Assembly: GCA_037576195.1 (NCBI GenBank) | Contig: CM075103.1 | Span: 8,804,001-8,868,000 of the forward strand | DNA length: 64,000 nt | Source: Phytoseiulus persimilis | Lineage: Eukaryota; Arthropoda; Arachnida; Mesostigmata; Phytoseiidae | Direction: 5' to 3' | Shown here: positions 18,875 to 45,557 of the stretch, piece after piece | How the letters are laid out: every line of letters starts with the position of its first letter | Numbering within the stretch: position 1 is the first letter of the stretch | Program-made: the position numbers and the translations under genes | Notes under the pieces: model-generated | Seen by the model: only the letters and a program-made list of their open reading frames with translations | The model's database searches: none | What the model was told of the DNA's origin: nothing

Positions 18875-18897
18875 GCCCACATCGAGGCCACATCTAG

Positions 18898-20322
18898 ATG
18901 GCGGAGGGTCAAAACCCCGATGCGAAGAGGCGACGTATTGATGAGTCGATGGAAGAGGATACGGCCGGATTCCGTGCCGAATCTCCGCACAATGGCACGG
19001 CAAGTGGTTCCTCCAGAACCGACCGCAGACTATCGAGCTCTTTCTTCATCGAAAGGTTGCTGAGATTTGCAACGAAATCTTGCACTGGAACCGCACCTAC
19101 GGACTGCGCCGAGGCTTGCCGTTACTACCGCAGCATGGACGATCCGAGCTTTGCTTGCTCCGAGATGCGTCCAGAAGTGAAAGTCAGCCAAATGTTGTCT
19201 TTTCACGAGAAACTCGCACTCGTGTATCTCTCTGAGTCCGTCGAGTCTTTTCCCGAAGAAACGGCCTTAGCGTTCGAGCTCCTGGAAGCGTCTTGGTTCG
19301 AAAATGAAAACCCGGATGCGGTGAGGAATCTCACGCCCAGGGGCCCACGGCTGAAGTATTTCCGGATGGCTCAGAGCATCCGGAACAAGCACGGAATCTC
19401 ACGGAAAAATCCCTTCATGCAATGTTTCAACTCATTCGAAGACATCACGAAACTAGAGAAGGCACTTGCGGAGGACGATCCGCTAGAATTCATGCTCCAG
19501 TGCGTTGCTTTGTCGAAGGATGTGTGGATTGACAACATGTACAGCTGCACAAAGACACACTGGCAGCTGAAGTCTTTCCATCAGGAGATTTCCCGCATGG
19601 GCAGGGCATACCCGGACTGCGTAGACGCATACGCTGGCCACTTTGAAGATTTGAGTTCTAGCGGTGAGAACATACCCACGTGGTGCCAGGTGGAATCCTA
19701 CCTGAACCTGCCGTTCCCATGTTTCTCACCCGATATAGAAAATTTATTTCACGCGGAAGTTCCTCGAAAGAAGCTCGACGAGGCTCTCAGGAGAGTGTTG
19801 AGCTACCTCCTCCAATGCTTTGGTCCGGAGAAGAAGCGGTGCCTCCTGGAGGGTTACCCCGAGTCGCAAGTCATCACACCAGCTGTGGTGAACGCGACCG
19901 TTCACGGGCTACGGCGGCTGCTCCAGAGAGGCGCCAGCTTGGATTTCAGGGAGCCGCAAGAGTTTATTCATCTTGAACAGTCGTCTCTGGGAGCGCTCAT
20001 CGAGCTTGCGGACGTCGTCTCATCGTTCCCGCTGGCGGAACTAGAACCCTATATTTGTTGCCCGCTGACGCGTAAACGATACCGAATTGAATTCGATAAA
20101 TTCCGCCCTGCTCGGCTCTCGTGCCTCGCCGCGCGAAGCGTTCGAGTTTCGGCAGAGTGTTCGGAGATCCCGGGAAAACTACGCTCGTGCCTGAGGATGC
20201 ATCAGGACCTGAAATCGCAGCTCGAGAATGAACACCTGCGGATCGCTCTTATAGGGGGAAGGGTTCTGGGTGAGACGTTTCCCATGGATAATCCCAACTC
20301 CGCAGACCCTCCGGCTTCTTAG
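18898..20322 (+). CDS. Intronless SOCS-box-like family protein, member 1 (474 aa)
   Basis: No named homologue is recognised. An in-frame TAG directly precedes the ATG, fixing the start. Residues 9-13 (AKRRR) form a basic NLS-like cluster followed by an acidic low-complexity stretch. About 45-260 is a conserved core with IERLLRFA, FPEETALAFELLEASWF, RLKYFRMAQSIR-KHGI and EFMLQCVAL. About 330-390 resembles degenerate ankyrin helices (LRRLLQRGASLDF, then EQSSLGALIELADVV and YICCPL). Residues 403-436 (RPARLSCLAARSV, then IPGKLRSCLRMH) match the spacing of a SOCS box: a BC-box-like segment with Cys, then the P-x-x-LR helix. SOCS boxes dock Elongin B/C, which suggests a nuclear Cullin-ligase adaptor; this is inference. 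Members at 27,405, 38,648 and 44,112 share the layout. AATAAA at 20,429 follows the stop by about 105 nt. Confidence 0.85.
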   Translation: MAEGQNPDAKRRRIDESMEEDTAGFRAESPHNGTASGSSRTDRRLSSSFFIERLLRFATKSCTGTAPTDCAEACRYYRSMDDPSFACSEMRPEVKVSQMLSFHEKLALVYLSESVESFPEETALAFELLEASWFENENPDAVRNLTPRGPRLKYFRMAQSIRNKHGISRKNPFMQCFNSFEDITKLEKALAEDDPLEFMLQCVALSKDVWIDNMYSCTKTHWQLKSFHQEISRMGRAYPDCVDAYAGHFEDLSSSGENIPTWCQVESYLNLPFPCFSPDIENLFHAEVPRKKLDEALRRVLSYLLQCFGPEKKRCLLEGYPESQVITPAVVNATVHGLRRLLQRGASLDFREPQEFIHLEQSSLGALIELADVVSSFPLAELEPYICCPLTRKRYRIEFDKFRPARLSCLAARSVRVSAECSEIPGKLRSCLRMHQDLKSQLENEHLRIALIGGRVLGETFPMDNPNSADPPAS

Positions 20323-20428
20323 GAACGAAGCACCGGAATTTACGAGATGAACGTTGACGGAAGCTTCGACAAGTCGCTCCGATTCCGGGAGACTTCGAGC
20401 CTCTTGGCTGTAAAGACGTATATTGTTA

Positions 20429-20434
20429 AATAAA
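20429..20434 (+). terminator. Polyadenylation signal AATAAA, family gene 1
   Basis: About 105 nt after the stop codon. The same signal is kept in copy B at 28,949. Confidence 0.55.
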
Positions 20435-20518
20435 AGTGACTCAATGATGAAACATGTAATTCTGAATGCAAGCCTCGATTCGTTCGAGAAAGAACCGTCA
20501 CGAATATATTGTGTAAAC

Positions 20519-20733
20519 CAGGGGTTCTCAAAGCGGTCGATATCGACCCCTGGGGGTCGATGGCCGATCTCCGGTGTACAGAGGTGATGCCGGGGTGGAT
20601 TTAACCATACTTCTTGGCGTCCACGTAGGTAGATCAAGGGGTCGACGGTCGATCCCTCGGGGACGGCAGTTCATAAACTTCAACGAAATCGCCTAGGGGG
20701 TCGATGGGTCATTGGAGGGTTTGAGAACCACTG
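20519..20733. mobile_element. hAT-type MITE, 215 bp, with 8-bp TSD
   Basis: The termini are inverted (CAGTGGTTCTCAAA class, first base pair region mutated to CAGGGG here) and flanked by GTGTAAAC at 20,511-20,518 and 20,734-20,741. CAGTGGTTCTCAA termini with 8-bp duplications are typical of hAT elements. The interior is rich in GGTCGATC repeats and noncoding. Copy B holds the same insertion, so it predates the duplication. Confidence 0.85.
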
Positions 20734-21018
20734 GTGTAAACCAATATAATAGTAGGCCTCATTCCGGTTGTTCCTCTGTGCATAGCGCGGAGAAAGCGAG
20801 AAGAAGAGGAAGCAGATCTTCTCGGAAGGAATCCGTATCCATTTATGCTCGAAGCGGCTTAATTATCGTCTTCTCGTCTACTTCCTCCAGTTCATTGTTG
20901 GGTAGAATGCGTCATCCGACTTTGCATGTACTATCTAATCATCAGATATCTCCGTTCTCCTTGATCTGCCCCACTAGAGGAATGACCGGCTTGGACAGAT
21001 GCGCGGTGGCTCTGGCAA

Positions 21019-21688
21019 GGGAGGTACGCGATGTGTAACACCGGGATTCAGATGAAATGGTGCCCGTTCTGTAGTGGCCCATGTTCAAGCCCCACAGTTG
21101 GCCGTCCGTCGGAATGGGCTCGCGCTCTTCACGGAAGATTTTGAATTAGGACAGAAGGGGGTTTGTCGGCGTCTCGAGCCCCACAGTCGCCCCGATCTCT
21201 GACTGGCAATCGGGTATTACGACTTTTCAGCTAGTGGACGACTCGCGGGAAACGATAGGATCAACCAGACCCTTTTTTGAACTAGAAGTCCAGGACTGCA
21301 GAAAAAAGGTTTACCGGCGTTCCGAGCTCGAGAGTCCCTCCATTGACCGGTTATACTGATGTGCGACCTTCTTCTCGGGGATGAGCGGCGGATCGGACCA
21401 TCTCTCAATTTTCATGGGTTTGATCGAGCGTCTGATCGGTCTTATAGTCTTGCGGGGATTGATCTCTGATCAGAACGTCGCATATTTAGGTGACCAGCCA
21501 GAGATCGGGGCGACTGTAGGGCTAAAACCGCCGACAAACCTCTTCCTCTTCCAATTTGAGATCCCCCGTGAAAAGAGAACGCGAGCCCATTCGGGACGGC
21601 CAACTGTGGGCCTGAACATGAGTCACTAGAGGCTTCAAAACGGGCACCATTTCATCTGAATTCCGGTGTTACACATCGCGTACCTCCC
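21019..21688. mobile_element. 670-bp foldback element
   Basis: Arms starting GGGAGGTACGCGATGTGTAA (21,019) and its complement ending at 21,688 extend inward for roughly 200 bp with some mismatches (shared GATGAAATGGTGCCCG, then AACTGTGGG and GACGGCC). A unique centre separates them. There is no transposase. It is identical in copy B at 29,539-30,208. Confidence 0.65.
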
Positions 21689-21738
21689 AAGTGAGTGTCG
21701 CGCGGCGAAACTCGGTGTCGGACAGAATGAAGCTTCGG

Positions 21739-22440
21739 CAGTGGCGTACCCAGGGGGGCAAGGGGCCATATCCCCTTGAGACTCTTCGATAATATTGGGA
21801 GGTATGGATTCTATTCGACTATAATGGACGGAAGTGTTCTGCGAAGATTCAGTCTTCCCAGGAAATTCCCTCTCACCTCCAAAAAAGAAATGGGGATAGG
21901 CAACAACTCTGTACACAGCGTTAATTCCCAGGGTTGGACGTAGTCTCGTAGAGATCAGAGACCGAATTGTTTTCAACCGAGGATGACATCTTCGCCAAGG
22001 TAGTGACTTGAGTGGTGAGCACAAGTGACTCGACAAGAGAGGCGGCGAGGTTCTCGCGGATTGACCACATCCTTATCAAGGGTCAGGAGAGGACACCGAA
22101 GTTCGTGAAGAAGCCGTTCTTCACGAGAAATCAGGACGGGGATTGTAGAAGAGCGGTGGGAGGCCACCCAAGTCCGACAAGAATCGCGAAGAATGAAGCG
22201 CGAATTGGCAAAGCGATCCATCCTCGACGGAAGGAACCCGGACCATATGATGCAGTTTTCAGCCTACATGTGGCGCTCTGGTCGCGGGTTGGTTGGGATT
22301 GGGCCCTGAATAGCATCGGTGCTTCACAGAACCCCGATGATCGAGATTGAGTTTAGTTTTGTCATGAGAAGCGAGTGATCAGCCGAAATTCGATTGGAAT
22401 AGGCGTGTGAATAAAACGAGAATATGCTGCTGAGCTGTGG
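21739..22440. repeat. Interspersed repeat R, copy 2, with CAGTGGCGTACCCAGG end
   Basis: The left edge CAGTGGCGTACCCAGGGGGG is a typical DNA-transposon terminus. From 21,780 on it is related to 12,990-13,590. The plus-strand frame from 22,012 stays open for 112 codons, starting with a non-ATG codon, and includes SDSTREAARFSR and KFVKKPFFTRNQ. Confidence 0.5.
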
Positions 22441-23224
22441 TCGCCGCGCGAATTCGAGAGGAGTCCGAGTGATTTGAGTCCATGAACATAGATCATAAAC
22501 TCTCCCGGTTATTCTCCGGGATCGTAATTGCGCAACCAGGAGCGCTTCTGAGCTATCTGAGGCCTTGACACGGGAATCGTTATCCGAGAAGCGTTTTCCG
22601 TAGGAATAATATGCGGGGTCGTTTGAGCTCCATCTACACTGAATGGTCAACAATCGTCGGCTGGGATGAGGCGAGCGAGAACAGCCGTGCAGTCGCACAG
22701 TCGAGCTATTTCTGTGTCGAAGTGCTCGTAGTCCGGGTTCGCGAGTAGTTTCTTCTCCTGAGTCTCCCTGTCATTGTCTTCACAGACTGCGCGGTGATCC
22801 CTGAGGACCTTCGGGTTCGGCGAACCCCACCGAGCCCGACCTTGTTTCGTCGCAACTCTTTCATCTGATTCCTCTGCATCGCCGAGATGGTACGTTCTAT
22901 GAACATACAGTGGCAGTCAATGTAGTAGAACCAGCCTCATCGATTGGAGCTTATTTTGACGTCCGTCAGCCCATGGCCCTCCTGGAAATGTCCGGAATGT
23001 CGATGACCAGGAGAGTATTTAGCAGAGTAAGAATAGAGAATGCCCTCGTAAACCAGCTTCAAATTGCTGCCATCACCCTTTGGAGGAGCGAGCGCTAAAA
23101 GATTCAATGTGAACCGGTTGCTATGATCGCATGGCTTCCATTGGCTTGCGCATTCCAAGGTGTTCACAAAACCGATTGATGACTGCAGAAGTGATGTCAG
23201 CGTTCGGAGCTGTGCTGCAGCTTC

Positions 23225-23671
23225 CATTCTACTATTCGGGCCGATGTCCATCGAGGCAGTGAGCGGTGACGGTCGCATCACTGTTCGCGACGCTTTTTGC
23301 GGTTGTGGAACCGCGGTCTGGAACATGTCTTCGTAGGTAATTCCGAGGTCAATCTGACCATATATTTCGACTATGGAGGTGCTTCCGGGATCGAGCTGAC
23401 CGTACTTTTCGGAGTCTAAGGAGGTGATTCCGAGGTCCATCCGACCAGACTCGTCGGGTGGATGGCGGTGATCCAAGAGTCGATCTGACCATACTTCACG
23501 GGGTCAGTGGAGGTAAATGTCTACGATAGTCCACTACACTGTTCACGGGAGCCTAGAAGACCGGCTACGATCGCGAGCTACAAGGGGAGCTTCAGAAACA
23601 CCCGAAAGAACAGTCGGATCCGAAAAGCTCACACGTCATGCACGAGAAAGCCGCCAGAAACATCGGAGAAA
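23225..23671. repeat. Linker shared with 37,238-37,692
   Basis: This segment joins the two duplication copies. It aligns with 37,238-37,692 from CTTCCATTCTACTATTCGGG to AACATCGGAGAAAA. It contains degenerate 45-bp-satellite monomers (ATTCCGAGGTCAATCTGACC). Its right edge is the duplication junction at 23,671/23,672. Confidence 0.85.
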
Positions 23672-26231
23672 ATCTCATCTCCTCTATGCCAGATCGCGTG
23701 TTCCACGTCATATCGAGAAAGGGGAAACAGATAAACTATTGAGATGCCTTTGATGTGTCTTCCGATCAGATAGAGTAATCGAAAATCGATTTGATTCTAA
23801 AAGCGTGGTTTCCTGGAACTCTCCGATAATATTGGAAGGGTTGGACTATTTTCTACAATGATGTACCAAGTTGTTCCGCAAAGATTCAGGCTCATCAGGG
23901 ATTCCTCGCCCCGTAAGAAAAAGCTGAGGACGCTCCTAACTATCAGTTAGGAAACCTTGCCTGGGTCGAGCTCCAGGCGAGACGAGAACCGAATGAGAAG
24001 TTGCTTGGCTCGTGGAAGTCCAGTAGTGTACTAGTCATTCCACCTGCCAAGAGAGAAATGATCATCTCAGAATACAAAGGCAACAACTTTATCTAGAGAG
24101 TCAATTACCAGGGTTTGGCGTAGTCTCTTAGGAATCAGAGACCGACTTGTTTCCGACCGAGGCTGACCTCTCCGCTAAGGGAGTGACTTCGAGTACTGAA
24201 CACAAGTGACTCGACAGAAGAGGCAGCGAGATTTTTGCGGGAGGAGGACATCCTCACCGCGGGTCAGGCGAGGACATCGAAGTTCGGGAAGAAACCGTTC
24301 TTCACGAGGAATCAGAAAGGAGGATGGTAGAAGTGCGGTGGGAGGCCACGCAAATCCGACAAAAAACGCACAGCTCACCATGCCCGCGCTCAGGTATCCA
24401 ATGTACATTGTACACATGAAGATGTGCACGTAACGGAACGGTTGAGGAACATATCGATCATCAATGTCGAAAATCACCGCGAGGATAGCCGCTGATCGGT
24501 CGAACGCGAATGCCGCGAAACCTCGCGGACCTGTACCTACGAGAATCTGTTTCCGAGAGCTCAGGTATTGGAAACACTCCGGGTTCTTGATGCCGTCCAA
24601 CGAATGGAGCGCGAATTGAGAGCTCGATCCATTGTCGGCGGAAGGCCACCTTATGATTCCGTTTCGAGACAATGTGTGGCGGTCTGGTCGGGGGTTGGTT
24701 GGAACATCGATGCTGTACAGAACTCCGAAGATCGAGATTGAATTCAGTTTTGTTATGAGGAGCAAGTGATCAGCGGAAACTCGATGATAGGAAAATGATG
24801 ACAACGGCAACCGCGAGGACGCTGATGGAACAGGAGTATTATTAAAACGGAAATACGCTGTTGAGCCGTGAACAGGGGCCACGAAAATCCAGGAGTCCGA
24901 GTCTACGAGTTCAGGTGAGGGAGCTAAATTTCGGATATGGGTTCGAATAGACTTTCTCGGGCTCATTCTGTCCTGACTTATTCTGGCCCACGAAGCTGTG
25001 AGAGTCAGGATATCAGTCTAGTGATTGCTGGAGAAAGAGGCAGAAGCTCGAGAAATACACGCATTTCGAACGAACCGAGAGAAGATACGTGCTAGGGACA
25101 TAAAATTGGATAACATATTATTATCATTGCCAAGTGAATTTCTAGTGTGAATGTAGCGCCTTCATCCGACTGCAGCCGGGCGAATTCAACCTGACAACCA
25201 ATCGTCTCTGTCGTGTTTCGTTTCAAGGGAGATTCGCGAAAAGGGGCGTTTTTTCTTTCCCCAAAATTCAGAGGAAATGTCACCACAAGGGCGGGTGACG
25301 CGGAACCCCTGGAACTCGACCGATGAGGATCCTGCCACTTCACGAAAAACTGGTTCCCAGTAACAAATCGCACACTGAAGTTGCGTACAATTCTCGCATT
25401 CAATGGATCAGACATTTTCCGATCGATTTTCTTTGTTTTCTGGGAGGTGGGAGTTTTTTGTATGTTGTTTCCATACGGGCCTGTTGTGCCAGATGGACAC
25501 CTCTCCGAAACACACCGAGCGAGCTCAACTCCACCGCCAATAGGGAACTAGTGAGCACTCCGGAAAAGAGAAGCGAAAAATCGCTTCCTGTATATCTGCT
25601 TTCAAAATGAAACAAAAATTCTCGGAGACAATTCAATCGATTCGCCAGAGAAAATTCCAGAATCCGCCAACTGCTCGAATTATCTGACCTAACTTAACCG
25701 CCGTCTGAATCGCGAGTACCGATGGTATTCGGAAAAACATAGCTCTGAATGCTGAAGTCACTTCTCCAGTCATCAATCGGTTTTTGAACACTTGGGAAAG
25801 CACAACAGAAGCCATTCGGTCGCAGCAGCCGGTTCACATTGAAACTCTTAACGGTCGCACCTCCACACGGTTACGGCGTCAAGGTAAAGGAATACGAGAG
25901 TTTCCGGCCTGAGGCTCTTCATCCTCCGACGGAAGCGTTTTCCGCTAGCATGAAGTGAACTGGAAATGATGAGGATCTTGGGTTTCAGCACGAAGAATTG
26001 CTGAATTGTGACTCGCTTCTACCTGGTTCTACTTGTGTTCCGTGGTTCGCGTTGTTCGTTTCACGATCCCGCGTTCTCTGGCTCCCGGGCTTCAATAGAA
26101 GGAGGTGCCTCTGATCTCGGAGGCTCGTGTCGCATATTCACATAGTTTCCATTCGATAGATTCTTCCGTGAAGAAAAAAAGCTCTTGGTCTGAGCCTCCT
26201 CGTTCGTATCGAAGTTCCGAAGGTCGGGGTT

Positions 26232-26723
26232 ATGCACAAACCCAGCAAGAGCGCCCATGCTGGCCGGTTGCACGTTGAGATTTTCGAATCAAAGACAATG
26301 AGAGCCATCAAGCGATATAAAATTAGTGGAAGCATCCCGGTGCTGGACCGCAAGATTCATGGTGTTTTCCTTTACTGCGAATACACCGCCCCTGATTCTC
26401 TACGAGCAATCAGGTCAGCGATTCCCACGGTGATCAGTCTCGAGTGTTCATCCGAGGGTGTCTTCAGCGCTGAGAGATCAGGGAATGGTGGTGCTTCGAT
26501 TTTCACCGACAGAATAAAGCCCCCGTTTTCGAAGGGTAGCGGCAAAGAAATCCTGTTCGGGTCTAACGGCTCCGCGTATCGAAACTGTAGCTGTTCGAAG
26601 GCGGTACATACTCATTTGCTGCCTGTTCCCAAGGAACGAAAACAGGGAGCATATCCAAATGTTGCCGATGGAACCTCCCGCTTGCGAACACTCGTATCCA
26701 AGATCATTGAGCCCCCACATTAA
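26232..26723 (+). CDS. Uncharacterised ORF, copy B (163 codons)
   Basis: The uninterrupted counterpart of 15,801-16,304, ending naturally at PPH-stop on TAA. Identity is unknown. The two copies differ by a few bases, including a two-codon change (ESKRIR versus ESKTMR). Confidence 0.25.
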   Translation: MHKPSKSAHAGRLHVEIFESKTMRAIKRYKISGSIPVLDRKIHGVFLYCEYTAPDSLRAIRSAIPTVISLECSSEGVFSAERSGNGGASIFTDRIKPPFSKGSGKEILFGSNGSAYRNCSCSKAVHTHLLPVPKERKQGAYPNVADGTSRLRTLVSKIIEPPH

Positions 26724-27404
26724 TTATATTTGGCTTTGTTGAGACGCGATTCGTCGATACGAACAGAAGGCTTCTTTCGTATGGGATCTCCCACACCGTT
26801 ATTGCGGTTCCAGTGTAAACAGAACCGCATAGCGATTGGCGATGCCCCCGTAACTCTCTCAGTAAGCCTAATTCCGTAGGTAACCCGTCTCAATTCGCAT
26901 ACAGCAAAAAAGAGGGTGGAACCCATTCACTCTCCCACTCACAACCCATATAAGCATCCCCCCACCAGAATGAACTCCTGTTCACCCGTGCACCGAACGA
27001 TCTTCCCACTCGTGCCGTATCAGCGTCCGCGAGGTGAAACCGCCTGTGCACGGAGCTTTTTAGCTGGTGTGCCACTGAAGACGAATTTCCTCTTCAACAC
27101 GTTAGCAGTACCTTCGTTTGTTTCGAGCAACGCCTGCGCATCTTCGGTGAGTTTAACAGGATAATACGCGGTGAACAGCCATTTCGTTATGTCCTTCCCA
27201 CCGTCTCCAAGTCAAATTTCTCATGATATCACCAGCCGACAGTGATACGTTCATCATCCTCGTAACGGATCAATCAGACTTTGATACACCTTCACCAGTT
27301 CATTTTGGAGTAAAACGAATCTCCATTCTTCCAGGCTTCCTGATTGCCTGTTGGGAGATCTCCCTCTGTTCATTTTTCTAGGCCCACATCGAGGCCACAT
27401 CTAG

Positions 27405-28829
27405 ATGGCGGAGGGTCAAAACCCCGATGCGAAGAGGCGACGTATTGATGAGTCGATGGAAGAGGATACGGCCGGATTCCGTGCCGAATCTCCGCACGAT
27501 TGCACGGCAAGTGGTTCCTCCAGAACCGACCGCAGACTATCGAGCTTTTTCTTCATCGAAAGGTTGCTGAGATTTGCAACGAAATCTTGCACTGGAACCG
27601 CACCTACGGACTGCCCCGAGGCTTGCCGTTACTACCGCAGCATGGACGATTCGAGCGTGGCTTGCTCCGAGATGCGTCCAGAAGTGAAAGTCAGCCAAAT
27701 GTTGTCTTTTCACGAGAAACTCGCACTCGTGTATCTCTCTGAGTCCGTCGAGTCTTTTCCCGAAGAAACGGCCTCAGCGTTCGAGCTCCTGGAAGCGTCT
27801 TGGTTCGAAAATGAAAACCCGGATGCGGTGAGGAATCGCACGCCCAGGGGCCCGCGGCTGAAGTATTTCCGGATGGCTCAGAGCATCCGGAACAAGCACG
27901 GAATCTCACGGAAAAATCCCTTCATGCAATGTTTCAACTCATTCGAAGACATCACGAAACTAGAGAAGGCACTTGCGGAGGACGATCCGCTAGAATTCAT
28001 GCTCCAGTGCGTTGCTTTGTCGAAGGATGTGTGGATTGACAACATGTACAGCTGCACAAAGACACACTGGCAGCTGAAGTCTTTCCATCAGGAGATTTCC
28101 CGCATGGGCAGGGAATACCCGGACTGCGTAGACGCATACGCTGCACACTTTGAAGATTTGAGTTCTAGCGGTGAGAACATACCCACGTGGTGCCAGGTGG
28201 AATCCTACCTGAACCTGCCGTTCCCATGTTTCTCACCCGATATAGAAAATTTATTTCACGCGGAAGTTCCTCGAAAGAAGCTGGACGAGGCTCTCAGGAG
28301 AGTGTTGAGCTACCTCCTCCAATGCTTTGGTCCGGAGAAGAAGCGGTGTCTCCTGGAGGGTTATCCCGAGTCGCAAGTCATCACACCAGCTGTGGTAAAC
28401 GCAACCGTTCACGGGCTACGACGGCTGCTTCAGAGAGGCGCCAACTTGGATTTCAGGGAGCCGCAAGAGTTTATTCATCTTGAGCAGTCGTCTCTGGGAG
28501 CGCTCATCGAGCTTGCGGACGTCGTCTCATCGTTCCCGCTGGCGGAACTAGAACCCTACATTTGTTGCCCGCTGACGCGTAAACGATACCGAATTGAATT
28601 CGATAAATTCCGCCCTGCTCGGCTCTCCTGCCTCGCCGCGCGGAGCGTTCGAGTTTCGGCAGAGTGTTCGGAGCTCCCGAGAAAACTACGCTCGTGCCTG
28701 AGGATGCATCAGGACCTGAAATCGCAGCTCGAGAATGAACACCTGCGGATCGCTCTTATAGGGGGAAGGGTTCTGGGTGAGACGTTTCCCATGGATAATC
28801 CCAATTCCGCAGACCCTCCGGCTTCTTAG
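27405..28829 (+). CDS. Intronless SOCS-box-like family protein, member 2 (474 aa)
   Basis: Paralogue of member 1 in duplication copy B, same length with no indels or stops. By hand alignment 13 residues differ: positions 32, 33, 47/48, 71, 83, 85, 124, 145, 237, 247, 347, 424 and 426. Ten of these lie in the first 250 residues, where I count only one silent change. The last 224 residues have three replacements and about twelve silent changes. The NLS-like cluster, core, ankyrin-like part and SOCS-box-like C-terminus are all kept. Within the SOCS-like part I424L and G426R fall beside the conserved proline. The in-frame TAG before ATG, upstream splice signals and AATAAA (28,949) are conserved. 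Maintenance of the frame suggests a functional gene. Confidence 0.85.
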   Translation: MAEGQNPDAKRRRIDESMEEDTAGFRAESPHDCTASGSSRTDRRLSSFFFIERLLRFATKSCTGTAPTDCPEACRYYRSMDDSSVACSEMRPEVKVSQMLSFHEKLALVYLSESVESFPEETASAFELLEASWFENENPDAVRNRTPRGPRLKYFRMAQSIRNKHGISRKNPFMQCFNSFEDITKLEKALAEDDPLEFMLQCVALSKDVWIDNMYSCTKTHWQLKSFHQEISRMGREYPDCVDAYAAHFEDLSSSGENIPTWCQVESYLNLPFPCFSPDIENLFHAEVPRKKLDEALRRVLSYLLQCFGPEKKRCLLEGYPESQVITPAVVNATVHGLRRLLQRGANLDFREPQEFIHLEQSSLGALIELADVVSSFPLAELEPYICCPLTRKRYRIEFDKFRPARLSCLAARSVRVSAECSELPRKLRSCLRMHQDLKSQLENEHLRIALIGGRVLGETFPMDNPNSADPPAS

Positions 28830-28948
28830 GAACGAAGCTCCGTCCGCAAGCACCGGAATTTACGAGATGAACGCTGACGGAAGCTTCGACAAGTCGCTCC
28901 GATTCCGGGAGACTTCGAGCCTGTTGGCTGTAAAGAGGTATATTGTTG

Positions 28949-28954
28949 AATAAA
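28949..28954 (+). terminator. Polyadenylation signal AATAAA, family gene 2
   Basis: Equivalent of the signal at 20,429, about 120 nt after the stop because copy B keeps 13 bp lost in A. Confidence 0.55.
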
Positions 28955-29038
28955 AATGACTCAATGATGAAACATGTAATTCTGAATGCAAACCTCGATT
29001 CGTTCGAGAAAGAACCGTCACGAATATATTGTGTAAAC

Positions 29039-29253
29039 CAGTGGTTCTCAAAGTGGTCGATATCGACCCCTGGGGGTCGATGGCCGATCTCCGGTGTACA
29101 GAGGTGATGCCGGGGTGGATTTAACCATACTTCTTGGCGTCCACGTAGGTAGATCAAGGGGTCGACGGTCGATCCCTCGGGGACGGCAGTTCATAAACTT
29201 CAACGAAATCGCCTAGGGGGTCGATGGGTCATTGGAGGGTTTGAGAACCACTG
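29039..29253. mobile_element. hAT-type MITE, copy B
   Basis: Intact CAGTGGTTCTCAAA / TTTGAGAACCACTG termini, flanked by GTGTAAAC at 29,031-29,038 and 29,254-29,261. Confidence 0.9.
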
Positions 29254-29538
29254 GTGTAAACCAATATAATAGTAGGCCTCATTCCGGTTGTTCCTCTGTG
29301 CATAGCGCGGAGAAAGCGAGAAGAAGAGGAAGCAGATCTTCTCGGAAGGAATCCGTATCCATTTATGCTCGAAGCGGCTTAATTATCGTCTTCTCGTCTA
29401 CTTCCTCCAGTTCATTGTTGGGTAGAATGCGTCATCCGACTTTGCATGTACTATCTAATCATCAGATATCTCCGTTCTCCTTGATCTGCCCCACTAGAGG
29501 AATGACCGGCTTGGACAGATGCGCGGTGGCTCTGGCAA

Positions 29539-30208
29539 GGGAGGTACGCGATGTGTAACACCGGGATTCAGATGAAATGGTGCCCGTTCTGTAGTGGCCC
29601 ATGTTCAAGCCCCACAGTTGGCCGTCCGTCGGAATGGGCTCGCGCTCTTCACGGAAGATTTTGAATTAGGACAGAAGGGGGTTTGTCGGCGTCTCGAGCC
29701 CCACAGTCGCCCCGATCTCTGACTGGCAATCGGGTATTACGACTTTTCAGCTAGTGGACGACTCGCGGGAAACGATAGGATCAACCAGACCCTTTTTTGA
29801 ACTAGAAGTCCAGGACTGCAGAAAAAAGGTTTACCGGCGTTCCGAGCTCGAGAGTCCCTCCATTGACCGGTTATACTGATGTGCGACCTTCTTCTCGGGG
29901 ATGAGCGGCGGATCGGACCATCTCTCAATTTTCATGGGTTTGATCGAGCGTCTGATCGGTCTTATAGTCTTGCGGGGATTGATCTCTGATCAGAACGTCG
30001 CATATTTAGGTGACCAGCCAGAGATCGGGGCGACTGTAGGGCTAAAACCGCCGACAAACCTCTTCCTCTTCCAATTTGAGATCCCCCGTGAAAAGAGAAC
30101 GCGAGCCCATTCGGGACGGCCAACTGTGGGCCTGAACATGAGTCACTAGAGGCTTCAAAACGGGCACCATTTCATCTGAATTCCGGTGTTACACATCGCG
30201 TACCTCCC
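29539..30208. mobile_element. 670-bp foldback element, copy B
   Basis: Identical to 21,019-21,688 throughout, as far as line-by-line comparison shows. Confidence 0.65.
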
Positions 30209-31733
30209 AAGTGAGTGTCGCGCGGCGAAACTCGGTGTCGGACAGAATGAAGCTTCGGCAGTGGCGTACCCAGGGGGCCAAGGGGCCATAGCCCCTTAAG
30301 ACTCTTCGATAATATTGGGAGGTATGGATTCTATTCGACTATAATGGACGGAAGTGTTCTGCGAAGATTCAGTCTTCCCAGGAAATTCCCTCTCACCTCC
30401 AAAAAAGAAATGGGGATAGGCAACAACTCTGTACACAGCGTTAATTCCCAGGGTTGGACGTAGTCTCGTAGAGATCAGAGACCGAGTTGTTTCCAAGCGA
30501 GCCTGACATCTTCGCCAAGGTAGTGACTTGAGTGGTGAGCACAAGTGACTCGACACAAGAGGCAGCGAGGTTCTCGCGGATGGACCACATCCTTATCAAG
30601 GCTCAGGAGAGGACATCGAAGTTCGTGAAGAAGCCGTTCTTCACGAGAAATCAGGAAGGGGATTGTAGAAGAGCGGTGGGAGGCCACCCAAGTCCGACAA
30701 GAATCGCGAAGAATGAAGCGCGAATTGGCAACGCGATACATCCTCGACGGAAGGAACCCGGACCTTATGATGCAGTTTTCAGCCTAAATGTGGCGCTCTG
30801 GTCGCGGGTTGGTTGGGATTGGGCCCTGAATAGCATCGGTGCTTCACAGAACCCCGATGATCGAGATTGAGTTTAGTTTTGTCATGAGAAGCGAGTGATC
30901 AGCCGAAATTCGATTGGAATAGGCGTGTGAATAAAACGAGAATATGCTGTTGAGCTGTGGTCGCCGCGCGAATTCGAGAGGAGTCCGAGTGATTTGAGTC
31001 CATGAACATAGATCATAAACTCTCCCGGTTATTCTCCGGGATCGTAATTGCGCAACCAGGAGCGCTTCTGAGCTATCTGAGGCCTTGACACGGGAATCGT
31101 TATCCGAGAAGCGTTTTCCGTAGGAATAATATGCGGGGTCGTTTGAGCTCCATCTACACTGAATGGTCAACAATCGTCGGCTGGGATGAGGCGAGCGAGA
31201 ACAGCCGTGCAGTCGCACAGTCGAGCTATTTCTGTGTCGAAGTGCTCGTAGTCCGGGTTCGCGAGTAGTTTCTTCTCCTGAGTCTCCCTGTCATTGTCTT
31301 CACAGACTGCGCGGTGATCCCTGAGGACCTTCGGGTTCGGCGAACCCCACCGAGCCCGACCTTGTTTCGTCGCAACTCTTTCATCTGATTCCTCTGCATC
31401 GCCGAGATGGTACGTTCTATGAACATACAGTGGCAGTCAATGTAGTAGAACCAGCCTCATCGATTGGAGCTTATTTTGACGTCCTTTAGCCCATGGCCCT
31501 CCTGAAAATGTCCCGAATGTCGATAACCAGGAGAGCATTTCGCGGAGTAAGAATAGAGAATACCCTTGTATACCAGCTTCAAATTGCTGCAATCACCCTT
31601 TGGAGGAGCGAGCGCTAAAATATTCAATGTGAGCCGGTTGCCACGATCGAATGGCTTCCATTGGCTTGCGCATTCCAAGGTGTTCACAAAACCGATTGAT
31701 GACTGCAGAAGTGATGTCAGCGTTCGGAGCTGT

Positions 31734-32345
31734 GTTTTTTTTTCCGAATACCGTAGGTGCTCGCGATTTACAGGGTGGTTGAATTAGCTCAAATATTTCG
31801 AGCAGTGGGCGGATCCCAGGATTCTCTTCTGCTAATCAATTCGATTGTATCGATTGTTCTTCGTTTGGTTTCTGAAGAAAAATTATGGAAAGGGATTTGT
31901 TTTCGTTCAGAGTGCTCTCCGATTTTCCATCGCCCGTGCAGCTGAGCTCGCCCGGTGTGATGCGGGGGGTGTCCATCTGACGAAAAAAGCCCAGTGTCAC
32001 CAGCATCCCGCTCCCGCCTGGGCGGAACCGACGAGCCAAAACATAGAAAAGTTTTGGGGTTTTTGCCGTGAACCGAGCACCGGTGCTGGAATCGAATTTC
32101 GACGAAGCAACAATCGACTGGAAGATCTCCAGTCAGTTAAATGCGGGAAAGATACGCATTTTCAGTGTGCGATTTGTGATCGAGAACCACTTCTTTGAGG
32201 AGTGACAGAGTCCTCTTCGGTCAAAGCTCAGGAATCCCGCAGCACCGCCCCTGTGGTGATAGACCTCTGAGTTGAAGGGAAAGAAAAAACGCCACTTTTC
32301 GTGAAACTTTTCCTGGAACGGAACGAAAAAAGGCGGAAACGATTG
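31734..32345. repeat. Old inverted copy of the 14,760-15,320 segment
   Basis: The reverse complement of 15,310-14,760 aligns with this stretch in patches: TTTTTCCGAATACC, ATTTCGAGCAGTGGGCGGAT-like, GGTGTCCATCTG, TTTTCAGTGTGCGATTTGT, and GAAAGAAAAAACGCC near the end. Gaps and many substitutions show an older event than the A/B duplication. It abuts the right edge of copy B. Confidence 0.65.
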
Positions 32346-36095: not shown

Positions 36096-36529
36096 CCCGG
36101 CCGACAACAAGAATTTCCTGTGTGGTAAAAAGAGGATTTAATTTATATCAGAATTAAATCTGGACCATCTTAAGACCCAAGCCCACCGCCCGCAATGGGA
36201 TTTGCGAGGCGATAGGGAGTGTTACTGAAGCAATACCGAAAGGTGATTCCGGGACACTTCTGAGGGCTGGCTGAGAGGTTCAGCCGGAAAAAAAAAGACT
36301 TGGAATGTAATGGCCAGATTGGTCCCGGAATCACCCCTCCAGACTTGGGATCACCTCGATAGACTCCAAAAAGTATAGTCGGGTCGAACCCGGAATCAAT
36401 AATGTAATTCGGTAGGCGGCCATCGTGGAACCCGCCTCATATAACCGGGTTCACCCGAGTCTGGAACCGGGTACCCGGGTCCGACACCCGGGTCCGGAAC
36501 CGGGTGTCATACCCGGTTCTGCGACCCCT
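36096..36529. other. Insertion remainder: unique segment plus ACCCGGGT-rich stretch
   Basis: After the array comes about 200 bp of unique sequence, one stray 45-bp unit (36,300-36,350), and at 36,440-36,520 a dense run of CCGGGT/ACCCGG palindromic words. Together with the array it separates two halves of one LINE. Confidence 0.5.
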
Positions 36530-37237: not shown

Positions 37238-37692
37238 TCGGCTTCCATTCTACTATTCGGGCCGATGTCCACCGAGGCAGTGAACGGTAACGGTCGCATC
37301 ACTGTTCGCGACGCTTTTCGCGGTCGTGGAGCCGCGGTCTGGAACATGTTTTCGTAGGTAATTCCGAGGTCAATCTGACCATATATTTCGACTATGGAGG
37401 TGCTCCCGGGATCGAGCTGACCGTACTTTTCGGAGTCTAAAGGGGTGATTCCGAGGTCCATCCGACCAGACTCTTCGGGTGGATGGCGGTGATCCAAGAG
37501 TCGATCTGACCATACTTCACGGAGTCAGTGGAGGTAAATGTCTACGATAGCCCACTATAACGTCTACGGGAGCCTAGAAGACCGGCTACGATCGCGAGCT
37601 ACAAGGGGAGCTTCGGAAACACCCGAAGGAACAGTCGGATCCGAAAAGCTCACACGTCATGCACGAGAAAGCCGCCAGAAACATCGGAGAAA
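37238..37692. repeat. Third copy of the linker segment
   Basis: Homologous to 23,225-23,671. Beyond 37,692 this copy continues into unique sequence, showing the arrangement before the duplication junction formed. Confidence 0.85.
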
Positions 37693-38218: not shown

Positions 38219-38647
38219 TTCTCGTCGCTGGGGTACGTTGTCGCGCTGAAAATACTAAAAACCGGGGAACAGCGGATAGAATAGCGATAGAAGGTTCACG
38301 AATGTTTTATTCAGGACGGCCCGAATCCCGGAGATCGGGCCTTACAATTGGAATCGTCAAACGCTCAATCGATATACCTCCAATTAGGAATGTACTTTTT
38401 AGCATCCGACGGGGGCGTAGTCAAGCAGTCTCTCGAAACCCCGCGTTCTGAATCGAAGTCATTCCCCGGAGCGTCCGCTCCTCGAGTATCTACAGAATCG
38501 AGTGGTTCCCGGATAAGTTCAACGATGTATGGAATATGAGAGGGGAGAACTAAACCACAACCGCAGCGAAAGACACTTCGCGTGAGTTCACTCAAAGTTA
38601 CTTCTCAAAATACCTGGGCGGCCTCTCAAAATCACCAGATACTCACA
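38219..38647. other. 3' flank of family gene 3; no other gene seen
   Basis: A minus-strand AATAAA (complement at 38,306-38,311) lies about 340 nt beyond the stop of the gene to the right and may be its polyadenylation signal. Confidence 0.3.
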
Positions 38648-40174
38648 TTATTCGTCAAGCATATCATCAGATTCCTCGTCCCCATCGGATTCAAAAGCTC
38701 CGATGGCGTCATCGACAATCCGGTGTGGCCGCCTCAAAATACTGTCTATGGTCCATCTATTCAGAACTGCCTGACTCCAGCTCATTCGCGGGCCTTCAGG
38801 GGGAAAGTTGTCGACGTCTAAATAATCCACGGGATACACGTCACCTAAGACCCTTCTCCTGATCATGGCGATCCGCAAACGTCTGTTTCCAAGCTGTGAT
38901 CGTAGGTCCTGGTGCATTCTCACAAACGAGCGAAAACAGCTCGGCAATCTCGAATCATTTTTCAAAGTTGGAATGTTTCGAGCAGCGAGGCATGAGAGGC
39001 GAGCGAGGCGTTGACAATCAAATTTCACTTCGTCTTCTTCGCGCGCTAATGGACAACAAATATAGGGTAAAAGCTCCGTCAGTGGAAACGAAGAGACCAT
39101 GTCTGCGAGCTCGATGAGCGCCCCTAAAGACGATTGCTCACAGTGGAGGAAATCGTGCGGCTCCCTATATTCCAAGCTGGCTCCCCGCCGGAGGAGCAGC
39201 AGCAAGGCGTTCGCCGCCGCGTTCACTTTATTGGCTGTGAGGATGTGCGACTCGCGGTACCCATCGGCCGCGCACCGCAACCTGTCCGGGGCGAAACAAC
39301 GGATGATGTAGCTCGTTACTCTCCTGAAAGCCTCATCGAGCTTCTTGCTTGGAACCTCAACATTGAATAGGTCTTTGATATTGGATACGAACATCGGCTT
39401 CGGTTGTTCGAGGTATGTTTCCAGCTGAAACCAGTCCGGCGTTACCGGGTTTTGCACAAAATCGCCGGTCAAAAATTCGAATCGGTCAGTATACGCATCT
39501 AAGTCAGACGGGGTGAGCCTCCCGAGATTGGAAACTCCGAGATAGAGCGATTTAATTTCCCAGTGGGTCCAGGTGCAGGCGAACATGGCTTCAATGCTTG
39601 CGTCATCTGTCAACGCGACGCACTGCAGCATGAAATCTATACACTCATGATTTGCGAGTGCTTTCTCCAGTTCTATGATATCTTCGAAGGAGTTGAAACA
39701 AGGCCAGTCGGGAATTCCACGTGAGATTCCATGCTGGTTCCGTATACTTTGAGCCATCCGGAAATATGTCAGCCGTGGGCCGGAAGGCAAGTTCTCCCTA
39801 ATCGGAGTTCGGGGATCACCCTCGAACCAGGCCGCTTCCAGGGTCTCAAACATTAGAGCCGTTTCTTGAGGAAAGTGCGCGACAGACATAGCAAGGAACT
39901 CGAGCGTTTTACGCTCGTGTAGTCCCAGCATTTCGCAGAGTTGTACCTCTGGTCTCTGCTCATTGTAAACACACCTCGGATTATCCAAGCTGCGGTAGTA
40001 AAAACATGCCTTCGGGCAATCTTGAAATATAAATGTAACGCAGGGTCGCGTCACGAATCTGAGCAACCTATCGACGAAGAGAGACAGTCTGCGGCGAGCT
40101 TCTAGAGCCGGATCCTCTTCTCGCAACTCTACGAGACGTCGCTTCTTTGGAGCTGGTTCTCGACTTTCAGCCAT
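38648..40174 (-). CDS. Intronless SOCS-box-like family protein, member 3 (508 aa)
   Basis: I chose the ATG at 40,174 because it aligns with the other members (MAESREPAPKKRRL). A splice acceptor (catttttcag, exon from 40,191) lies 17 nt upstream, so the 40 open codons further upstream are probably intronic. It has a basic NLS-like PKKRR, then VDRLLRFV, FPQETALMFETLEAAWF, RLTYFRMAQSIRNQHGI and EFM-like core motifs (IDFMLQCVAL). The ankyrin-like part (LLLLLRRGASLEYREP, EQSSLGALIELADMVSSFPL, YICCPL) and SOCS-like LARLSCLAARNI with LPSCFRSFVRMHQDL follow. It carries an extra C-terminal tail ending in an acidic run (ESDGDEESDDMLDE) not seen in members 1, 2 and 4. The sequence is much diverged from members 1 and 2, so the family predates the A/B duplication. 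Confidence 0.85.
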   Translation of the reverse strand: MAESREPAPKKRRLVELREEDPALEARRRLSLFVDRLLRFVTRPCVTFIFQDCPKACFYYRSLDNPRCVYNEQRPEVQLCEMLGLHERKTLEFLAMSVAHFPQETALMFETLEAAWFEGDPRTPIRENLPSGPRLTYFRMAQSIRNQHGISRGIPDWPCFNSFEDIIELEKALANHECIDFMLQCVALTDDASIEAMFACTWTHWEIKSLYLGVSNLGRLTPSDLDAYTDRFEFLTGDFVQNPVTPDWFQLETYLEQPKPMFVSNIKDLFNVEVPSKKLDEAFRRVTSYIIRCFAPDRLRCAADGYRESHILTANKVNAAANALLLLLRRGASLEYREPHDFLHCEQSSLGALIELADMVSSFPLTELLPYICCPLAREEDEVKFDCQRLARLSCLAARNIPTLKNDSRLPSCFRSFVRMHQDLRSQLGNRRLRIAMIRRRVLGDVYPVDYLDVDNFPPEGPRMSWSQAVLNRWTIDSILRRPHRIVDDAIGAFESDGDEESDDMLDE

Positions 40175-40191
40175 TTGATTCAGCGGGAGGC

Positions 40192-42487
40192 CTGAAAAAT
40201 GTCCCTCGGTCAACGATGAAGTCTCTCCATGATGACTTAAGAATCTCCTGAGAAAATCGGGAAGCACAGTCTCGTTCATTTGGGAGGGCGCCATTCGCAG
40301 CGGGGGTTTGAGAGCTCAGATCTTGAGGGAAAGCCTACAGCCACATTCGCTCTTTGTTCCGGCAGAACCGGCAGCAATATGCGACAGGTCTACCACGGGG
40401 TGTATACAGGCTCCATGCGCAGAGCACAAACAACATCCCCTTCGAGGCCGCTATCGATGAAGTAAAGAACAGGGGCTCTCTGCTATCGGCCGGAACAGAA
40501 TCATCCTCCAATCCCGACTTTCGATCGGAGTCTGTGGAATCCACATTCGCGTATCCACTCGTCTAGAGTGACGTTCCCCTCAGAACAGGAATCTCGCTGG
40601 CACAAACGCTCTAAACTGGAGACCAGCGAGATGAGAAAACACGGGCTGACCTGATCAGTCGTCAAAGAAGAAGATCACAGGTTGCATGATCGTAAGAACG
40701 TGTCGCAGGGAGTCACTTTATCAGGCGTTTCAGCGCCCGAATGTTTCCGCTACGTTTGTTTTGCTCTGTAGCTCTCACTCTCTTCCATTCGGAAATCTCC
40801 ACTCGCAACCACTCGGCTTAGGAGGAGCCGGTTCACGTTTATGCCATTTTCCATTGTCTCCTCTCCGATTTTCCCGATCGCACTCGATGCCACCGACTCC
40901 GTCGAGCGCATTCGAATTAATTGCACGGAGCCGCGTGGAAACACTAGAGTCACCCTTCGAATGACATTCGTTGGCATGGATTGAGAAGGAGCCCAGCGGG
41001 ACAGCCACCATCCCTCCACGTTAATGCTGATAAGAATTCAGCCGAGGCTCCAAAGCTCCGCACATGTGATTTGCTTCTCAGCGAATGCTTCCTGCGTCTA
41101 CAGCTTGGTGAGAATGCTGAATTCGGGAATTATTCAAGAAAATCAGACACTTCTCCGGCTCAGGCTCCTCTCCGCTGACACGCTCCAGAGTGGAAAGCGA
41201 CGGAGAGTAGGGTGTCAGAGAGTTCATCCATGACGGTCGAAGAAATCGTGCCTCTAAATCAGAATCGTCGATCACATGGTTAAGCTCCTTTCTTTTCGAA
41301 GAGTACTTGAGATCCGATGGTCGCATCGGTTCGAAGTCCCCCGACACTTCAAGTTATGATTCATAACACACGCCGTCTTCCCTTAGCGGTTCCATCGACT
41401 TGACGAAAAGATGTGGAATCGTTGCCGCATCGGTCGAGTCCCGGTCGGGCAAGAGATGACTTCGACCAAACCGCTCGTTTCATCTTCTGAGACCTAAAGC
41501 TTCAATTGCCTGATTGCTGCTCGCATTTTCCCGATGATATTCTTATACAAACATGCAACACATGTTCGTCGGAACCTGTAGCCTTTGGGAATTTCTTCGG
41601 GGTTTACTTGCCGACGAGCTTCCTCAGAACAGCATCGCAGATCGTTCGCAATGGAATGTTAGCTCCCTCAAAAGCATTACACGAATTGGTATTCAATTGA
41701 TTCGTTGGCCGTGCGCTAACGACGGAGGCCAAGAGTTAGTGTTGCATCCTTGACCTTCTGTTATCTTCACGTTCCCAGAGAGCGACTTTGTGAAATTCTG
41801 CGCTCACATGATGGATCTTGAACTTGGTGGGTTCTGGAAATGCCATCGAGGGTGTCTAACAGAATGAACCGAATACGCTTGAAGTGAACAGTTCGATTTA
41901 TTTGACAGCATCCAGCATATAATAGTGATCCGATTCTTCAGACCGTTCTTCCCCTTCAAGCACTTGACCGGTATTTCCTTGCTAATATCTGTTTGCTCCA
42001 AGCTCGAACAAGCTATTCGTCACAGGTGCACGGATTTTCCCATTTCCTCTGCAGATGACGCTCCAATGTCCGCTCCAAATTCGCTTAAAACAGAACCGAC
42101 ATGCGTTTTTTCTAGCTCCTTTCAATTTGACGGAAAGCTCTGAAGAACAATTATTACGATTTTCCCTAATTGCTCTTTTTTTCTGGCAATCTGCGCCGAT
42201 AGCTCGCTCGGTGGAGGCCGGCTGGACGTCGCAGTCCTCGATCCATCGCGACGTGCCGTCGTGATGCTCGAAACGTGCCTTTCTTCGCTCGGAATCAATA
42301 GGCAGGCGGGGAGATCGAGCTTCCCGAGCTGCACCAGCGGGTTTTCGGGAGGAGGATAGATAACATCCTCGAAATTAGACAAAAACTCATCCAACGATTG
42401 AAATAAGAGGGTCGGTTGAATAGGCCTGGAGATTAGGAAATCGCAGAATATGCATGCATGCGGGAAATATGCGTTTCATCGGATGTA
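40192..42487. other. Intergenic between family gene 3 and the mariner
   Basis: Includes the presumed 5' flank and 5'UTR intron of gene 3. Scattered short ORFs show no domain, and I see no repeat array or RNA gene. Confidence 0.3.
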
Positions 42488-43771: not shown

Positions 43772-43773
43772 TA

Positions 43774-44111
43774 TATGAATCCATTCATGTTTCCGATGGA
43801 GGTCGAATCGAGTCCACCGAGTTGAGGAGCCACATCCATGGACGTCTCTCACTGAGACACCCAGACTTCTGCTCAATGTGTCTGCCATCTTCTGCTGGAT
43901 GCGTTGCACTGGGAAGCTACTCCCCATTCCGAACCGGGAATTTTTCTGCCTTCGAACGGAAAGTCGTAGTTCGGGAAGCACTCTGGATGGTCGAGAAAGT
44001 CACGAAGCGAGATTGTTCCCATAAGAAACGGTCATCGAGATACAGGCCTCTAGAAACTTTATCAAAAACGTTCTTAATGAACCTTCAAACGCCGTGGATC
44101 GTTGACATCTC
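43774..44111. other. 3' flank of family gene 4; nothing else seen
   Basis: A short intergenic stretch between the mariner and the gene stop. Confidence 0.3.
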
Positions 44112-45557
44112 TCAGTACAGAACGTGTATGGCTCGTCTCCTGTTCAACAGAAACGAGAATAGAATGAGTTCGATGGGGCTGGCATCATCAACGGGATAAA
44201 GGTCACCGAGTACTCTCCTCCTCGCCACCGCAATCCACAAAACTTTTCTACTGAGTTGCGATTGCAGATCCTGGTGCATTCTGATCAATAACCGCAACTT
44301 GTTCGGGACTCGGGGGTATCTTCCCAGAGCCCCGACTCTCCTGGCCGCGAGGCACGAGAGTGGCACGATTCGGTTGGCATCCAAGCCCAGCTCACCCCTA
44401 ACAGTCGCCAGCGGGCAACAAATGTAGGCGAAAAACTCCATCAGCGGGAACGTGGGGACCAAAATTGCCAGCTCGATTAGCGCTCCCAAAGATGACTGCT
44501 CACAATGCAGAAACTCATGCGGCTCCCTGAACCACAACCGGGCACCTTTGTCAAGGAGCCACTTGAGAGCAACGACGGCTGTTCGCACATCTTCCCTGAA
44601 ACTCCCGAAGTCTGCGCCGACTTGAATATATTGCTCGCTCGTTCGGGCGAAATAACGGAGGAAATAATTCATCGTTCCTCTGAAAGCTTCGTCGATATGC
44701 TCTCTCGGGATGACTGCATCGAACAGAGTTTTCATCTGCGGGCAGAGGAATGGTGCTTCCTGGAGGTACATCTTCACCTGAGACCAAGTGGGCGCCGATG
44801 CTCTATTTTGTATCAGGAATCTGAATTGTTCTCCGAAAAGGTATTTGCATTTCTCATCGAGTTTGCCGAGTCGCGAAACTTCGCGGTGGAAAGACGTCAG
44901 CTGCGAGAGTGTTTCAGTGAGACTATACATGCTCACGAAGGCGAGAGATGCGTGCTCATCTTTCGTCAACGCTACGCACTGAGCCATGAACTCAACAGGA
45001 TTATCTTCCGCAAGTGTTTCCTCCATTCGCGCAATATCTTCGAACGAGCTGAAACATTGCGGTGAGCAATGAGCACGTGTGATGCCATGCTGGTCTCGGA
45101 TCTGCTGCGACATACGAAAATACTCCAACCGCGGGCCGCTGGGGAGTTTTTTCCTCACCGCGGTGTCGGGCAACGGAGAACGATCGAACCAAGAGGCCTC
45201 CAAGAGCTCGTAGGTCGAAGCTGTCTCGTCAGGGAAGCTTTCGCAGAATTTGGCGAGGTAGACAAGCACAGCATCTTCGTGGTCGATGAGGAATTCAACG
45301 ACACTCAGCTTTGGGCGCTTTCGTGCGTGGAAAATGCTTGGAGCATTTCTTCGGTAGTATTTGCACGCCGACGTGCAGTCCCGAGATCTCTTCTCACACA
45401 GCTTCGAGGCGAAACTCAGCAACCTCTCGATGTAGAAATATTTTGACCATTCGCGCTGAGCGCAAAGAGAAGCGCTGTCTCGAGTTTTATGCAGTCTTTC
45501 TTGGAGATCATTTCCGAGTCGAGGCCTCTTCGGGGCTGGAGCTTCATCGTCAGACAT
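44112..45557 (-). CDS. Intronless SOCS-box-like family protein, member 4 (481 aa)
   Basis: The start at 45,557 (MSDDEAPAPKRPRL) aligns with the other members, and a splice acceptor (ctgtttacag, exon from 45,575) lies 18 nt upstream. The open codons beyond are therefore likely intronic. The basic NLS-like PKRPR is followed by IERLLSFASK, FPDETASTYELLEASWF, RLEYFRMSQQIRDQHGI and EFMAQCVAL. The ankyrin-like LKWLLDKGARLWFREP, EQSSLGALIELAILVPTFPL and YICCPLA come next, then the SOCS-like VPLSCLAARRV with VPNKLRLLIRMHQDL and RRRVLGDLYPVD. The tail ends in a hydrophobic NLL-type stretch (ELILFSFLLNRRRAIHVLY) instead of the acidic tail of member 3. Function is unknown; adaptor role is inferred from the C-terminus. 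Confidence 0.85.
   Translation of the reverse strand: MSDDEAPAPKRPRLGNDLQERLHKTRDSASLCAQREWSKYFYIERLLSFASKLCEKRSRDCTSACKYYRRNAPSIFHARKRPKLSVVEFLIDHEDAVLVYLAKFCESFPDETASTYELLEASWFDRSPLPDTAVRKKLPSGPRLEYFRMSQQIRDQHGITRAHCSPQCFSSFEDIARMEETLAEDNPVEFMAQCVALTKDEHASLAFVSMYSLTETLSQLTSFHREVSRLGKLDEKCKYLFGEQFRFLIQNRASAPTWSQVKMYLQEAPFLCPQMKTLFDAVIPREHIDEAFRGTMNYFLRYFARTSEQYIQVGADFGSFREDVRTAVVALKWLLDKGARLWFREPHEFLHCEQSSLGALIELAILVPTFPLMEFFAYICCPLATVRGELGLDANRIVPLSCLAARRVGALGRYPRVPNKLRLLIRMHQDLQSQLSRKVLWIAVARRRVLGDLYPVDDASPIELILFSFLLNRRRAIHVLY

Follow-up and report, generated by a model that had tools for sequence, protein, structure and literature searches.

Genes homologous to FEM1 without a recognizable N-terminal ankyrin domain in the mite Phytoseiulus persimilis

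A 64,000-nucleotide stretch of the Phytoseiulus persimilis genome (the window: C3:8804001-8868000 within a 181-Mb genome, C3 being contig CM075103.1) carries four genes of a family that is shown by profile comparison to be homologous to and collinear with FEM1, from the tetratricopeptide repeat (TPR) region, across an ankyrin-like part near the C-terminus, to the VHL box at the end. FEM1 chooses the proteins that a ubiquitin ligase marks for destruction and is a model C-degron receptor, usually present in one to three copies in animals; its N-terminal ankyrin domain and TPR region form the substrate groove. The genes described here probably encode shortened, quickly turning-over FEM1 paralogues whose VHL box would engage Elongin B/C and CUL2, making them substrate receptors of the cullin-2 RING ligase (CRL2) with copy-specific targets.

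Homology of the family to FEM1

The relationship to FEM1 was assessed with an alignment of 18 family members, chosen from the retrieved loci after nearly identical duplicates, fragments and broken frames had been set aside. Window genes 1, 3 and 4 are among its rows and gene 2 is not. The FEM1 profile consisted of human FEM1C and two sequences from this genome, L065 and a pieced L066. HHalign matched the family to this profile at 95.9% (E 5.3e-9) with 78 confidently aligned columns in the TPR region. The unrealigned path extended over 310 columns and placed family positions 91-431 on FEM1 247-640, the latter being the last FEM1 residue. The match persisted at 95.1% with a score of 69.7 when the family member L032 was omitted, compared to a maximum of 28.0 for column-shuffled FEM1 profiles (n = 200) and 13.0 for the single reversed profile. 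The 12 rows nearest to the window genes yielded 94.2%, and the C-terminal part alone yielded 89.9% with a score of 38.0 (maximum among 200 shuffles, 16.8). The 18-member alignment also matched FEM1C in HMMER with 19.3 bits, to which the TPR part and the box contributed 4.0 and 10.1 bits, respectively, in the same order as in FEM1C, and another stretch -0.8 bits. Among the 1162 of 2000 shuffles that were reported, none reached 19.3 bits and the best attained 8.0 bits.

A blind PDB search with the same alignment returned 38 distinct sequences (E ≤10), most of them ankyrin proteins that match near positions 304-330. The five matches ranked above FEM1C were ankyrin-repeat proteins on the ankyrin-like part, whereas the only matches on the C-terminal box were FEM1C (residues 583-617, the latter its last; E 0.0044) and three FEM1B sequences (E 0.034). 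With only the four window proteins as query, a single PDB match was returned, to an unrelated protein (E 1.1). Pfam produced nothing meaningful for the 18 members and no match for the four window proteins, and NCBIfam and PHROGs searches with genes 1, 3 and 4 were uninformative. The FEM1 assignment would place genes that Pfam leaves blank and that are otherwise unannotatable. An initial annotation of this DNA had recognized no named family and had proposed that clear membership of a characterized family would overturn its reading. FEM1 emerges as the ancestor from both HHalign and the blind PDB search, but the family is not FEM1 in the strict sense because a defining part, the N-terminal ankyrin domain, was tested for and is absent.

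The terminal box and the domains ahead of it

The VHL box of FEM1B comprises a C-terminal BC box (597-608) and a cullin box (617-627), according to PMC10943247, and the Cul2 box follows the pattern hydrophobic-P-x-x-hydrophobic-x-x-x-hydrophobic (PMC5216831). The BC motif L-x-C-L-A-A/S was present in 18/18 sampled members, which were chosen among intact frames. The BC motif followed by the Cul2-box pattern was found in 12 members, including genes 1, 3 and 4, in all three FEM1 sequences, and in 2 of 9000 shuffled family proteins. The contrast with the shuffles is overstated, because the BC pattern was written after the family and FEM1 groups had been seen. The HHalign controls are independent of this hand-written pattern. 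Gene 2 fits the Cul2 pattern by reading (LPRKLRSCL). With a FEM1-type VHL box the expected cullin would be CUL2 rather than CUL5; cullin genes are present in the genome.

The initial annotation had instead read the terminus as a SOCS box, which would make the proteins CUL5 adaptors of the ankyrin-SOCS kind. The spacing of the terminal box does resemble that of SOCS boxes and ankyrin-like sequence lies ahead of it. However, the Pfam SOCS_box model matched none of the 18 members at E up to 10 compared to six other places in the genome above the cut-off, profile comparison with these six SOCS boxes gave 0.4%, and it is FEM1C and FEM1B that match at the same place. Assignment to the Elongin-BC/cullin-binding kind of box looks right, and a SOCS identity is highly improbable.

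Upstream of the box, PDB ankyrin proteins match near positions 304-330, and this region of the family aligns with the C-terminal ankyrin repeats of FEM1. The ankyrin-like helices described initially are supported to this extent, although Pfam ankyrin models matched 0/18 members there or at the N-terminus. The FEM1 gene L065, in contrast, is matched strongly by these models. The family alignment begins at FEM1 column 247, about the end of the FEM1 N-terminal ankyrin domain. As judged from these comparisons, the window genes are shown to lack a recognizable N-terminal ankyrin domain and to carry in its place a short basic start resembling a nuclear localization signal. A remnant of the domain was seen in L032, the one row compared there individually: at the profile level its N-terminus matches the ankyrin domain of FEM1 (82%), although it is blank in Pfam. 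BLASTP of L032 against L065 recovered no more than the TPR part (E 0.001), and a PDB search with L032 alone gave weak ankyrin matches only. The basic start noted initially was confirmed as K[KR]x[KR] in all four window genes (KRRR, KRRR, KKRR and KRPR, respectively), and the motif occurs within the first 25 residues of 5/18 aligned rows, the start codon of some other rows being unsure. From this four-residue motif, we infer that the basic-start copies may be nuclear.

Loss of the N-terminal domain would remove most of the classical C-degron groove of FEM1. The proteins could be dominant decoys that have no substrates of their own and modulate the full-length FEM1 ligases, either by taking up Elongin BC-CUL2 or by entering FEM1 oligomers. 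FEM1B oligomerizes through a helix of its N-terminal domain, its C-terminal ankyrin repeats and TPR contacts, as set out in PMC10943247. Retention of the docking box, loss of the N-terminal ankyrin domain and partial conservation of these oligomer contacts in the family would all suit a decoy, an explanation that retains real weight because the part that was lost is the groove. Nevertheless, more than 30 divergent loci, with dN/dS <1 in those tested (see below), are many for a single decoy function, and the decoy explanation is considered rather unlikely.

Family expansion, constraint and proposed function

The family was initially thought to have four members. Instead, at least 34 related loci, some of them broken, were counted genome-wide, all locus counts being lower bounds. 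A search with gene 3 gave at least 28 matches which resolved into 23 separate loci on the scale of open reading frames. The remainder were second pieces of L017 and L019 (L028 and L029, respectively) and the fragments L031, L033 and L034, of which L034 is perhaps a chance match (E 0.007). Starting from the distant relative L064, at least 12 matches were obtained and counted as 11 loci, two pieces belonging to one broken copy, and L036 recovered the same set plus L032. The core is broken or partial in at least five loci (L017, L019, C1:2030292-2031432, C2:18256570 with one internal stop, and C3:27891349). Local amplification, as proposed initially, is evident: 11 of the 34 loci, including the four window genes, form one array at C3:8.717-8.850 Mb, and gene 2 is a tandem copy of gene 1. 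In a midpoint-rooted tree of 28 rows, the window genes, the rest of this array and three dispersed copies formed a group of 14 (support 99/98); L030 and L032 sit on long branches, and their position is uncertain. Four loci of the L064 clade lie in tandem at C1:2.030-2.043 Mb. These copies (C1:2030292-2043498) are 98-100% identical with one broken, denoting very recent amplification. L025 and L026 (C3:23.96 and 23.93 Mb), which are ~31 kb apart, encode identical proteins, and L024 is nearly identical.

Genes 1 and 2 are recent tandem duplicates (dN 0.012, dS 0.046). Self-comparison of the sequence placed them in a segmental duplication of roughly 8-10 kb, whose arms (12851-23214 and 23672-31734) share three pieces that are 97.0-98.5% identical. 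Seventeen pairs of family members were compared for nonsynonymous and synonymous divergence: 15 gave dN/dS values of 0.25-0.67, one had almost no differences and one was saturated. L012-L015 terminate shortly past the box, the tail of L014 continuing in another frame, as would be expected if selection extends only as far as the box. Taken with the duplication, dN/dS values of 0.25-0.67 suggest that these are functional CRL2 adaptors whose targets have changed.

At least two FEM1 genes were identified in the genome when 71 of 122 candidates were scored. L065 (C1:24664771-24666543) is a full-length single-exon FEM1 of 642 amino acids with 32% identity to human FEM1C over nearly its whole length. 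L066 is FEM1B-like and matches in separate pieces around C1:31307798-31308749; it is therefore probably multi-exon. L065 may be a retrocopy and may have given rise to the family, and the full-length single-exon L065 and the ankyrin-remnant L032 appear as intermediates in sequence comparisons. The FEM1C search also gave a side match to a 3118-codon ankyrin-rich open frame at C3:33342439-33351468.

We propose that a FEM1 gene became intronless, as exemplified by the full-length single-exon FEM1 in this genome, that the N-terminal ankyrin repeats were then lost, and that the product spread by tandem and dispersed duplication. The VHL box would dock on Elongin B/C and CUL2, so that each protein would be a CRL2 substrate receptor; the divergent TPR/helical middle and tails would confer on each copy its own target, and for the basic-start copies the complex would act in the nucleus.

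Several results weigh against this proposal. The four window genes alone scored only 17.6% against the FEM1 profile in HHalign, in comparison with the values for the TPR region with the full alignment or after omission of L032, and the five most divergent relatives scored just 3.2%. The 18-member alignment scored 18.4% against human FEM1C alone. Against L065, FEM1C and the pieced L066 taken singly, the profile without L032 scored 76.3, 53.6 and 0.6%, respectively, and the 12 rows nearest to the window genes scored 77.9, 11.3 and 0.6%. The strict Cul2-box pattern is missing from 6/18 members, dN/dS up to 0.67 allows for partly relaxed constraint, and at least two array loci (L017 and L019) are broken. 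The last two points, the damaged or incomplete members of the distant L064 clade, the early ends past the box in L012-L015, and the mariner element and minisatellites inside the array would also fit if these were functionless, decaying FEM1 copies carried by local duplication. Yet the window genes are intact across 474-508 codons, dN/dS is <1 in 15/15 usable pairs with old pairs included, and the BC motif is universal in the sampled members, though these were intact frames. Decay of the whole family is accordingly judged unlikely, and receptors with copy-specific targets remain the favored interpretation.

A bolder extension is very unlikely to hold: that FEM1, having lost the C-degron-reading ankyrin domain in this lineage, became the scaffold of more than 30 nuclear CRL2 receptor loci through conflict-like expansion, with the array acting in sex-specific or germline chromatin control. 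Phytoseiid males eliminate the paternal genome and, if true, this extension would add another FEM-1 derivative to sex biology. If the favored receptor interpretation is correct, a conserved ligase receptor can become an open-ended receptor family (~34 loci here) by losing its groove and keeping its CRL2 docking end. The genome offers a testable series of full-length multi-exon, full-length single-exon, ankyrin-remnant and ankyrin-less forms. No account of this family was found in the open-licence papers searched.

Features of the window and comparison with known systems

The four genes described initially as sharing one architecture are intact frames that align over their full length, and the core motifs are present in the quoted or slightly varied letters. 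Genes 2, 3 and 4 share 97, 53 and 46% protein identity, respectively, with gene 1. The gene 3 frame stays open for another 40 codons on the 5′ side, as far as an ATG at 40294.

Features of the window, in window positions
Feature	Position	Strand	Remark
Family gene 1	18898..20322	+	474 codons, single coding exon, intact frame
Family gene 2	27405..28829	+	474 codons, intact single-exon frame, tandem copy of gene 1
Family gene 3	38648..40174	-	508 codons, intact single-exon frame
Family gene 4	44112..45557	-	481 codons, intact single-exon frame
FEM1 TPR-like region, gene 1	19216..19455	+	residues 107-186; weak alone (17.6%), by alignment with gene 3
FEM1 TPR-like region, gene 2	27723..27962	+	by identity with gene 1
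FEM1 TPR-like region, gene 3	39665..39919	-	residues 86-170, HHalign
FEM1 TPR-like region, gene 4	45018..45266	-	positioned from its alignment to genes 1 and 3
Ankyrin-like stretch, gene 3	39077..39214	-	LLRRGASL ... SSLGALIELA; aligned with FEM1 C-terminal ankyrin repeats; limits approximate
Predicted FEM1-type VHL box, gene 1	20116..20202	+	BC box LSCLAARSV, Cul2 box IPGKLRSCL; coordinates computed from residue 407
Predicted FEM1-type VHL box, gene 2	28623..28709	+	Cul2 box LPRKLRSCL; by homology to gene 1
Predicted FEM1-type VHL box, gene 3	38912..38998	-	LSCLAARNI, LPSCFRSFV
Predicted FEM1-type VHL box, gene 4	44274..44360	-	LSCLAARRV, VPNKLRLLI
Putative acceptor AG upstream of gene 1	18873..18874	+	
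Putative acceptor AG upstream of gene 2	27380..27381	+	
Putative acceptor AG upstream of gene 3	40192..40193	-	weak tract
Putative acceptor AG upstream of gene 4	45576..45577	-	
Tandem segmental duplication behind genes 1 and 2	12851..31734	.	sequence self-comparison
Kinesin motor	51038-52083	-	right flank
RIO1 kinase	55934-56866	+	right flank
Phosphofructokinase	59769-60806	-	right flank

An intron in the 5′ untranslated region of each gene had also been proposed. The AG-ATG distances were verified (23, 23, 17 and 18 nt for genes 1-4), but the tracts are only partly above chance. When the score combined a pyrimidine tract with an AG 10-35 nt ahead of the ATG, the level of gene 1 was reached by 0.7% of the 1928 ATGs in the window, that of gene 4 by 6.7% and that of gene 3 by >25%; gene 2 has the same letters as gene 1 in the acceptor region. 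The sequence TTTTTCAGG is located upstream of gene 3 and likewise upstream of the C2 paralogue L008. These patterns suggest putative 5′ untranslated region introns in the window genes.

Between genes 3 and 4 lies a transposase frame of the mariner/Mos1 type that looks intact (342 codons; 42562-43590, minus strand; Pfam Transposase_1 and HTH_48). Two arrays of a 45-bp minisatellite in opposite orientation occupy 16276-18097 and 34512-36157, each open in one frame (600 and 471 codons, respectively; SPLQSWEVMLR...). The former belongs to the segmental duplication, whose second copy lacks it (near 26720). The right flank of the array consists of ordinary genes.

Compared with FEM1 (FEM1A/B/C of vertebrates and FEM-1 of C. 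elegans, which are CRL2 receptors), the family is collinear from the TPR region to the terminal VHL box. It differs in having no recognizable N-terminal ankyrin domain but a short N-terminus that is basic in some members, in the 12-90 residues that follow the box in the 12 full-pattern rows compared to 3-4 in the three FEM1 rows, and in number, with at least 34 loci versus at least two FEM1 genes here. The ASB and other SOCS-box proteins that act with CUL5 likewise combine ankyrin-like sequence with a C-terminal box of the Elongin-BC type, but the box of the family is FEM1-type and not SOCS. The PRAME family of mammals, which has leucine-rich repeats, is multiplied and fast evolving. PRAME itself is a VHL-box CRL2 receptor, as stated in PMC5216831, and so resembles the family in this respect; the two are set apart by description, leucine-rich repeats against FEM1-type TPR and ankyrin parts, rather than by sequence. 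Poxvirus ANK/BC proteins are ankyrin proteins that target CUL2 through a C-terminal BC box (PMC6232478), and are likened to the family by that description only. They are viral proteins, whereas an origin of the mite family from an animal virus, at which no search was aimed, is thought unlikely because FEM1 genes reside in the same genome: two FEM1 genes and an intermediate argue for descent from FEM1 instead.

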